In this document: positions 23,974-26,011 of the stretch, in pieces
Layout: every line of letters begins with the position of its first letter
Position numbering within the stretch: the stretch's first letter is position 1
DNA from: Bradyrhizobiaceae bacterium
GTDB lineage: Bacteria; Pseudomonadota; Alphaproteobacteria; Rhizobiales; Aestuariivirgaceae
Direction of reading: 5' to 3'
NCBI GenBank assembly: GCA_947475225.1
Contig: CANJMQ010000032.1
Location: forward strand, 1-40,549
DNA length: 40,549 bases
Translations under genes and position numbers: made by a program
The notes under the pieces: model-generated
The model's input: the letters and a program-made list of their open reading frames with translations, nothing else
Told to the model about the DNA's origin: nothing
Database searches by the model: none

Positions 23974-24159
23974 ATGGCCGTTCCACGCAAGAAGATGTCA
24001 AAAAGCCGTATCGGCATGCGCCGTTCGGGCCACCATGAACAGACCGTGACATGGGTCGAGGACAAGAAGTCGGGCGAGCTCCGCCGCCCCCACCACATCG
24101 ACCTGAAGACCGGCCTCTACAAGGGTCGCCAGGTTCTTACGGTGAAGGCTGAAGGCTAG
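23974..24159 (+). CDS. rpmF: 50S ribosomal protein L32
   Basis: 61 residues, the full usual length of alphaproteobacterial L32: [19 protein letters not shown], then [20 protein letters not shown] and [16 protein letters not shown]. It belongs to the large ribosomal subunit. The zinc-binding cysteines of some L32 proteins are absent, as is normal in this lineage. GGAG lies about 8 bp upstream of the ATG. A strong terminator follows at 24187-24210. Confidence 0.97.
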
Positions 24160-24186
24160 ACCCTTCCGTCGTCGTTGACGCTTCGA

Positions 24187-24210
24187 AGCCAGCCCTCGGG
24201 CTGGCTTTTT
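24187..24210 (+). terminator. Rho-independent terminator of rpmF
   Basis: Perfect 8-bp stem AGCCAGCC (24187-24194) / GGCTGGCT (24199-24206), CTCG loop, then a run of five T. Confidence 0.92.
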
Positions 24211-24289
24211 GCGTTCCCCAGGGGCGCGCTAAGAGTTCCTCTCTCGCGCCCCACACAAGGGCCGTCATCTCGGCACACCCCCCTCCATT

Positions 24290-24320
24290 GGTGTGATCCC
24301 GGCGAAAGCCGGGGTGACGG
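24290..24320. repeat. Dispersed intergenic palindrome (alphaproteobacterial REP-like)
   Basis: GTGATCCCGGCGAAAGCCGG followed by GGTGACGG contains a perfect stem CCCGGC (24298-24303) / GCCGGG (24308-24313) with a GAAA tetraloop. Sequences of the form GTCATCCCGGC..GCCGGG recur between genes in many alphaproteobacteria. Only one copy is visible in this window, so its repeat status is from memory. Confidence 0.6.
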
Positions 24321-24351
24321 CGTCACAGAGAATGGGGGAAAGAAGATGCTT

Positions 24352-24381
24352 ATTGACTTTAGTCCTATAATATGCCTATAT
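24352..24381 (+). promoter_or_regulatory. Strong housekeeping-type promoter without a downstream gene
   Basis: ATTGAC (24352-24357) and CTATAT (24376-24381) are 18 bp apart. This is close to the alphaproteobacterial sigma-70 consensus CTTGAC-N17-CTATAT. Transcription would start near 24388 and run into sequence with no credible reading frame. Confidence 0.6.
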
Positions 24382-24387
24382 CCCATC

Positions 24388-24780
24388 GCTCTCCCCAGTC
24401 GGGGTCCTGCTCATGGCGGTGAGCTCGGGCGAGGTGGAGGACAGGCCTGCGGGTGCGACGTAACGTGTGCCGCTCTCCCGGGGGCCGAGGGGGAGACCCG
24501 GGGGCAATACGCCCCCCGCGCCTCAGGCAAGGCGACACGTTCCTTGGGAACAGTCCGCAAGCGCTCCTCCAAAGGCCTAAGACCTGTCGGTTCGCGGGCG
24601 CTGCTCAGCGCTCTACCGCTGGTCCCACAAGGATCAGCTCACCGCGCCGGGCAGCGCCCGCGCCTCCCACTTCTCTCGCGAGGGACCATTGCAACCCTCA
24701 CCAAGGATGGCTCATGCCTGTGCACACGGCTCTCTCGCACCACCAAAGGAAAACGCCCGGCTCTCACCGGGCGTTTCTGT
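24388..24780 (+). ncRNA. Candidate structured non-coding RNA of unknown family
   Basis: This is the longest stretch in the window without a credible protein gene. From the promoter at 24352-24381 to the hairpin at 24751-24776 the sequence folds extensively. AACGTGT+GCC (24462-24471) pairs with GGC+ACACGTT (24531-24541) across one bulged G. GGGGGC/GCCCCC (24500-24516) and GTTCC/GGAAC (24539-24551) form hairpins. CGCGGGCGCTGC (24593-24604) pairs perfectly over 12 bp with GCAGCGCCCGCG (24651-24662), with CAGCG/CGCTG nested inside. GACAGG (24440-24445) can pair with CCTGTC (24583-24588). I looked for RNase P RNA, tmRNA and SRP RNA signatures and did not find them. 6S RNA cannot be excluded. The 3' end is not defined. 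Confidence 0.45.
24751..24776. terminator. Bidirectional terminator, ald and candidate RNA
   Basis: Perfect 10-bp stem AAACGCCCGG (24751-24760) / CCGGGCGTTT (24767-24776) with a CTCTCA loop, ending in T-rich tracts on both strands. It lies 25 bp after the ald stop on the minus strand and closes the plus-strand RNA candidate. Confidence 0.9.
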
Positions 24781-24800
24781 CTTCAAGACTTGCAGGCCGT

Positions 24801-25916
24801 TCAGGCCAGCAGCTTTTCCGCCGGCACGTAGGCGTAGCCGAGATCGTCGGCTACCGCCTTGTATGTCACCTTGCCGTCGGCCACGTTAAGGCCGTTGCGA
24901 AGATGCGCGTCATCGAGCAGCGCCTTCTTCCAGCCCTTGTTGGCAATGGCCAGCCCGAAGGGCAGGGTGACGTTGTTGAGTGCATAGGTGGAGGTGCGGG
25001 CAACGCCGCCCGGCATGTTGGCGACGCAGTAGTGGATGACGCCGTCGACCACATAGGTGGGCTCGGCATGCGTCGTAGCCTTGGAGGTTTCGGCACAGCC
25101 GCCCTGGTCGATGGCGACGTCGACGAGCACCGAACCCGGCTTCCAGTCCTTCAGCATCGCCTTGGTGACGAGTTTCGGGGCCGCAGCACCGGGGATCAGC
25201 ACGCCGCCGATCACGAGGTCGGCCGCGGCGCATTCGTCTTCCACCGCACCCTGCGTGGAATAGATCGTCTTGATCGCCGTGCCGAAGCGGGCGACCAGTT
25301 CTTCCATCCGGTCGGTGTTCTTCTCGAGGATGGTCACGTCAGCGCCCATGCCCAGTGCCACGACGGCGGCATTGGTGCCGACGACGCCGCCGCCGAGGAT
25401 CACGACCTTGCCCGGCGCTACGCCGGGAACGCCGCCCAGCAGCACGCCGAGGCCGCCCTGTGCCTTTTCGAGGCAGTGGGCACCGGACTGGACCGACATG
25501 CGGCCCGCGACCTGGCTCATCGGGGCCAGCAGCGGCAACCCGCCGCGCGGCGAGGTCACGGTTTCGTAGGCGATGCACACCGCACCGGAGGCGGCCAGGT
25601 CCTTGGTCTGCTCCGGATCGGGCGCAAGGTGGAGGTAGGTGTAGAGGATCTGGCCGGGGCGCAGCATCTTGCGCTCGGCAGCCTGCGGTTCCTTCACCTT
25701 CACGATCATGTCGGCCTTGGCGAATATCTCTGCCGCGGTGGCGATGATCTTGGCGCCGGCCGCCGCGTAGTCTGCATCCGTTGCGCCGATGCCCGAGCCG
25801 GCATTGGCTTGCACCCAGACCTCATGCCCGTGGCGCACGGCCTCCTTCACCGAGGTGGGCGTCATGCCCACGCGGTATTCGTGATTCTTGATTTCCTTCG
25901 GAACGCCGATGAGCAT
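24801..25916 (-). CDS. ald: Alanine dehydrogenase
   Basis: 371 residues, the standard length for Ald, which converts L-alanine and NAD+ to pyruvate, ammonia and NADH. The N-terminus [20 protein letters not shown] contains the substrate-binding residues, [19 protein letters not shown] follows, and [20 protein letters not shown] and the Rossmann stretch [20 protein letters not shown] are intact. ATG 25916 has GGGAGGA upstream on its strand. It is divergent from an Lrp/AsnC regulator that probably controls it through the inverted repeat at 26012-26041. Alanine made by the SpuC-like transaminase could feed this enzyme to regenerate pyruvate. Confidence 0.95.
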
Positions 25917-26011
25917 TGAAATGTCCTCCCTCGATGGTGGTCGCAAACTAGCAAATCCCGCCTGAAATGATTTTCCGAAGAGGTTTCCGGAGCACTGCAG
26001 CATTGAAACTC

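Follow-up and report, generated by a model that had tools for sequence, protein, structure and literature searches.

What is encoded between rpmF and the alanine dehydrogenase gene in this member of the Aestuariivirga group (Alphaproteobacteria, Hyphomicrobiales)? The window, that is the whole stretch of 40,549 nucleotides analysed here, is contig C32 of G000, a draft genome of 177 contigs which is 87.8% complete. rpmF (L32; 23974-24159, + strand), with mtgA upstream of it, and the convergent alanine dehydrogenase gene (24801-26003, - strand) enclose a spacer for which an earlier note had proposed an unassigned structured RNA behind a near-consensus promoter. As regards the structured RNA, this proposal was borne out for positions 24340-24725, where we found covariation and no match to Rfam. 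Beyond what had been claimed, the RNA is one member of a multi-copy family.

A covarying fold downstream of rpmF

The repeated unit, here called type A, consists of a promoter and a structured RNA on the + strand (24340-24725) and was recognized because its DNA recurs at six other places of the genome. The RNA body is predicted to start at about 24388. A covariance model of the family matches 24393-24725 with 336.4 bits, a score obtained with the window sequence itself included in the model. A REP-like palindromic stretch (GATCCCGGCGAAAGCCGGGGTGAC, 24240-24335) lies directly 5' of the unit and, by eye, similar ones flank some other copies.

None of 100 shuffled versions of the 400-nt stretch folds as well as the stretch itself (z -3.54). 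The comparison of relatives for compensatory changes suggested by the earlier note was carried out and gave covariation beyond controls. In the type A alignment (18 sequences) 96.4% of the cells pair and changes on both sides occur in 19 of 59 pairs (80 cells), a level that none of 500 shuffles attained; with slid partners the maximum was 9 pairs and 16 cells, a control over which the structures are favoured because they were derived from alignments made by sequence alone. A diverged second clade of the same layout (12 sequences) showed both-side changes in 27 of 84 pairs and 61 cells, which none of 500 shuffles equalled; the slid controls did not exceed 10 pairs and 13 cells. The same fold was found in two other genera (11 sequences, five genomes) with both-side changes in 27 of 62 pairs (0 of 500 shuffles), although for further pair types in this set 88 of 500 shuffles did as well. 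Related sequences can beat shuffles even without a structure; the argument from covariation rests on the size of the effect and on its recurrence in separate sets. Moreover, copies within one genome (G019) differ by paired changes in one hairpin, and G-U pairs are kept on the + strand. We are practically certain that this is a real structured RNA family.

The fold is multi-branched and all its helices are read on the + strand. P1 closes it (24432-24437 with 24663-24668); here 95.5% of cells pair and few of the pairs vary. P2 (24440-24445 with 24583-24588) is paired in 100% of cells and has different commonest strand pairs in type A, in the ORF-bearing type B described below and in other genera; only these commonest pairs were used, the automatic strand finder reporting a 6-of-6 pair at mixed places. 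The best-covarying helix is the P3 hairpin (24446-24482), with both-side changes in 7 of 12 pairs, and P4 (24490-24494 with 24565-24569) shows them in 4 of 5. The P5 hairpin (24499-24518; 4 of 6 pairs) carries a loop of the CANTANGA type which is conserved in types A and B, in a comparison whose type B list still holds two type A copies (G005_C79b and G005_C62). The long hairpin P6 (24594-24661) is mostly invariant in its outer part and varies in its inner helix (24618-24623/24633-24638), where 3 of 6 pairs change on both sides. It includes the 12-bp pair that had been noticed in the sequence: 24593-24604 (CGCGGGCGCTGC) and 24651-24662 (GCAGCGCCCGCG) pair perfectly. The 10-bp helix postulated for 24462-24471/24531-24541 fared less well: it is present in the single-sequence fold with one bulge, but it competes with the covarying P3 (24446-24460/24468-24482) and is therefore probably not a native helix. 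Further downstream, a 3' hairpin GAGGG/CCCTC (24680-24699) has a compensated pair in 2 of 13 sequences; it is folded otherwise in the 18-sequence alignment and stands outside the covariation counts. A core of 104 nt (24427-24530, + strand; model R2) is common to type A, type B and other genera.

The hairpin at 24751-24776, listed without a strand, had been taken for a perfect terminator ending the RNA. Relatives without the RNA (G017, G018, G001 and G035) keep this hairpin and we therefore assigned it to the convergent alanine dehydrogenase gene, although it may also stop the window RNA. A strict scan of 24150-24850 listed no strict terminator. In three of the relatives that lack the RNA here (G017, G018 and G001; loci L157, L156 and L159) the spacer between rpmF and alanine dehydrogenase contains, by eye, a different common stretch, GTAACGATTG...CTAGCC, which is perhaps another small element.

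Length and a strong promoter would also suit a divergent form of 6S RNA, RNase P RNA, tmRNA or SRP RNA, and 6S RNA had been suggested for this locus. Forms of these RNAs detectable by Rfam are refuted: a scan of the window and 20 loci with all families gave one tRNA only, no family matched in the window at gathering score, and a search with relaxed E-values returned chance-level matches alone (best E 0.47), none of them near a family cut-off. The models of RNase P RNA, tmRNA and SRP RNA, signatures of which the earlier note had not seen, gave no match, and ARAGORN finds no tmRNA. Identity with 6S RNA was rejected on account of matches to its model RF00013 elsewhere and of the multi-branched fold, as opposed to one long hairpin with a central bubble. 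Of 21 genomes searched, 20 have an RF00013 match at another place, 18 of them over the cut-off; the match in G000 is truncated and sub-threshold (32.6 bits) and lies on another contig (G000:C8:3-99). As the element is moreover multi-copy, we give a divergent form of any of these four RNAs practically no credence. Among all Rfam families searched, no model of ROOL, GOLLD, OLE or HEARO matched either. Searches of the open-access published literature on noncoding RNA of the genus, on multi-copy RNAs at the level of class and order, on intergenic repeats and on large ornate RNAs turned up no description of the family.

Copies, promoters and likeness within genomes

The window unit and its six matches make seven places in G000; because three of the six other matches are cut by contig ends, the genome holds at least six distinct copies. 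DNA-level matches were obtained in 16 of 61 genomes, all of the host genus. The type A covariance model, built from 13 sequences, extended this to 30 of 69 genomes of the family, of which 29 are among the 37 genomes of the genus and one belongs to another genus. As many as 18 copies were found in a single genome, and 8 of the 37 gave no match. The core model (104 nt, 51 sequences) likewise matches in 29 of 37 genus genomes and, across the order, in 23 of 397 genomes and 11 of 141 genera. Outside the genus this comprises 15 order genomes in ten genera, 13 of which have two or more matches. These relatives span eight numbered families of the order, and covariation was tested in three. The remaining 374 of 397 order genomes gave no match at E 0.001 under strict filters. 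Among 385 sampled genomes of the class the core model matched nothing but G000 and, weakly, G765 (37.5 and 35.4 bits), and among 398 of the phylum only G000 and two already-known order genomes. Strict filters apply to all sets above 40 genomes and absences there are therefore soft; E-values of the core and family models are rough. Several relatives from other families (L255-L270) share, by eye, a promoter-like stretch that has CTTATCCCC and a TA-rich hexamer in place of TTGAC. A pattern match in Reyranella was set aside, its position reading by eye as coding DNA.

The near-consensus promoter described for the window held in part. A predicted -35 element TTGACT (24353-24358) and, 17 nt after it, a predicted -10 element CTATAT (24376-24381) are present on the + strand, and TTGAC is enriched in the family, but the strict scan of 24150-24850 for sigma-70 sites returned none. 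In 70 family promoter windows, taken from copies other than the one studied here, TTGAC occurs 46 times, as against 4 of 70 control windows, and a second motif, TTCCTA, 29 times as against 1 of 70. The window has GTCCTA, one base off, between its -35 and -10 elements (24362-24367, + strand). Judged by these motifs, the unit is likely transcribed from its own promoter, and type A promoters may be regulated with TTCCTA as a predicted operator.

Several places are common to species, among them lepA (G000, G001, G017 and G029), rpmF-alanine dehydrogenase (G000 and G028) and trmB-rimP (G000 and G028). At 60 lepA and alanine dehydrogenase loci we found nine sense-direction matches, three of which are eroded or partial; at lepA, erosion is seen in three genomes. 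The six G000 copies compared share 91.4% on average (88.3-95.4) and form one branch in a tree (branch support unread), whereas they share 72.7, 77.3, 81.6, 63.2, 74.9 and 71.6% with their positional counterparts. Similar results were obtained for G029 (96.0% within the genome versus 59.3-63.2% to positional counterparts). Nearly the same pattern is seen in G005 (90.5% within the genome), where one G010 copy is nested among the G005 copies, and in G019 and G034 the copies cluster by genome. No such excess exists in G017, G028 and G010, where the two copies compared resemble each other no more than positional counterparts do. A likeness within the genome above that of positional counterparts is best known from rRNA genes. 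The G000 copies are likely kept alike by exchange or recombination between copies, as rRNA genes are; repeated insertion at common places instead of exchange is possible.

An ORF-bearing sister class

A sister class, type B, contains the 104-nt core and begins with a purine-rich ribosome-binding site followed by a start codon. The counts given here refer to the 36 copies with this 5' motif and a start at ATG (20), GTG (14) or TTG (2); three of the 39 places on the type B list lack the motif and play no part in the counts for the ORF and the closing helix, namely G010_C215 and two type A copies, G005_C79b and G005_C62. The frame is open over 80 codons in all 36 copies (0 stops in 2880 codons), whereas the two other frames have 81 and 82 stops in 2844 codons each. 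The ORF is likely translated. By reading, its conserved-looking amino acids largely follow from the RNA helices. Pfam gave no match for the ORF, and none of 83 database relatives bears an informative name. REP-like palindromes were seen by eye inside the ORF of G019 copies (L219, L220 and L221), with the frame kept.

In 31 of 36 copies an 8-of-8 partner of the 5' purine run lies further downstream, at a distance of about 245-455 nt. Single pairings of this kind are weak because 2-34% of shuffles equal them; the evidence for a closing helix is the common place of the partner, mostly the same CCTCC-type motif, and its matched changes (GGAGGGAA/TTCCCTCC and GGAGGAGA/TCTCCTCC). As far as base complementarity goes, the ribosome-binding site of type B can thus pair with the 3' end of the RNA.

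No frame is open in all type A copies, and the one frame that is open in the copy studied here (24175-24831) has stops in sister copies, in line with the earlier view that the stretch contains no credible gene. Type A often keeps the type B frame open across part of the core. This would be expected if type A were the decayed relic of an ORF-bearing type B; compensated pairs and conserved promoters would be unexpected in a relic, however, and relatives in other genera show no such ORF by eye. We consider this origin very improbable.

A small Cys-rich gene (CPxxRCRRxxxC) lies directly downstream of ten type B places in nine genomes and also directly after the core match in G070 (loci L194, L208, L213, L214, L218, L202, L207, L118, L121, L187 and L119). 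We found it in 16 of the 69 genomes of the family and in 4 of 347 from the order, each of these four belonging to the host genus; Pfam gave no match for it. As the gene was not found in G000 or G017, it is no general partner of type A. Among 11 genomes, there are only 5 in which the middle regions of types A and B match best within the genome itself; one of the 5 is inflated by a mislabelled copy, the two type A copies on the type B list being part of the comparison. A decoy link between the types is therefore weak.

Possible roles of the family

Conserved promoter motifs, scattered places, the lack of a common neighbour and the conservation of the fold point to a trans-acting RNA with a core that binds something. 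The reading that we put forward, tentatively, is that of a dispersed multi-copy RNA of about 330 nt which acts in trans as a scaffold or decoy. The type A RNA would be transcribed from its own regulated promoter and its conserved core would be bound by a protein, the number of copies would serve dosage, and recombination within the genome would keep the copies alike. In type B the fold would repress translation through pairing of the 3' end with the ribosome-binding site, and type A RNAs could compete with type B for the core-binding factor. The patchy distribution, the eroded lepA copies and the weak link between types A and B speak against a scaffold or decoy. A more far-reaching picture, in which order-wide multi-copy RNA genes with a shared operator and rRNA-like homogeneity have been overprinted in one genus with an ORF and a locked ribosome-binding site, and in which type A decoys tune type B, appears rather unlikely as a whole.

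A selfish non-autonomous repeat, the RNA fold of which serves its own spread and renders the host no service, is a serious rival, albeit a rather less probable one than the scaffold or decoy. The range of 0 to 18 copies in a genome, the patchy presence and the eroded copies at lepA would all be expected of it, and multi-copy motifs have been filed as mobile or repeat candidates in published work (PMC11109978). Twin type B copies have identical bodies next to promoters at baseline likeness in G007 (100% and 71%) and next to promoters of 87% in G011, and body-only insertion and exchange would both fit. However, in 25 units with approximate boundaries no terminal inverted repeats were found above chance (own mean 5.56 versus cross mean 5.34 bases), and target duplications gave no clear excess (flank repeats, own mean 5.48 versus cross mean 5.28; 9-11 bases in 3 of 25). 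Places common to species and conserved promoter motifs also argue against a selfish repeat, as does the absence of matches for the window unit in the plasmid and phage collections. Three units from other genera likewise had no match in the plasmid collection, and an exact 26-base pattern was absent from viral contigs. Scanning 28 neighbour proteins revealed no common neighbour gene for type A; nearly all are ordinary chromosomal genes and one is a transposase. The latter, ISXO2-like (L261:1716-2588), adjoins a copy in another genus, G038_C27. We also considered that the RNA might act in cis, as a leader or terminator of the gene next to it, given that some copies lie directly 5' of a gene in the same direction (lepA and rimP) and a few type B copies precede the small Cys-rich gene. 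Yet the window copy faces a convergent gene, the 3' neighbour is opposing at 16 of 46 type A places tabulated, the neighbour genes differ, and by eye the promoter-like stretch of lepA itself is kept in RNA-less relatives. A cis element is therefore improbable.

The scaffold or decoy reading has parallels in known systems. CsrB and RsmZ titrate a protein (CsrA/RsmA) that also binds mRNAs and provide a working analogy for the decoy, although we saw no repeated array of GGA hairpins in the family. The earlier guess of 6S RNA shares with it a strong promoter, structure and action in trans; fold, size and place differ. The hok-type mRNAs fold their 3' end back over the ribosome-binding region and encode a short hydrophobic peptide. 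Pairing between the 3' end and the ribosome-binding site is possible in type B as well, but its ORF spans the whole fold and the product is not a short hydrophobic peptide. ROOL, GOLLD and OLE are large, ornate bacterial RNAs defined by covariation with poorly understood functions (PMC12286853). ROOL and GOLLD measure about 600-800 nt or more and reside in phage or prophage loci, in contrast to about 330 nt and dispersed chromosomal copies here (PMC12286853). Closer in taxonomy are SmelA075 and SmelA099, trans-encoded sRNAs of the same order (Rhizobiales), each genome of which likewise carries several copies; they form short rows of similar hairpins, whereas the present family has a closed multi-branched fold with long-range helices (PMC3927594). 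The mobile or repeat candidates of the Breaker pipeline are also structured and multi-copy, and the example given for them has one long stem as compared to a multi-branched fold with its own promoter (PMC11109978).

Two copies were detected in Aestuariivirga litoralis, which makes a full deletion practical and the function therefore directly testable. The ORF-bearing type B would provide a natural instance of a single fold that serves both as a non-coding RNA and as an mRNA. With this family, a complex RNA of about 330 nt that reaches 18 copies in a genome has relatives in eight numbered families of a well-studied order without matching a family in Rfam.
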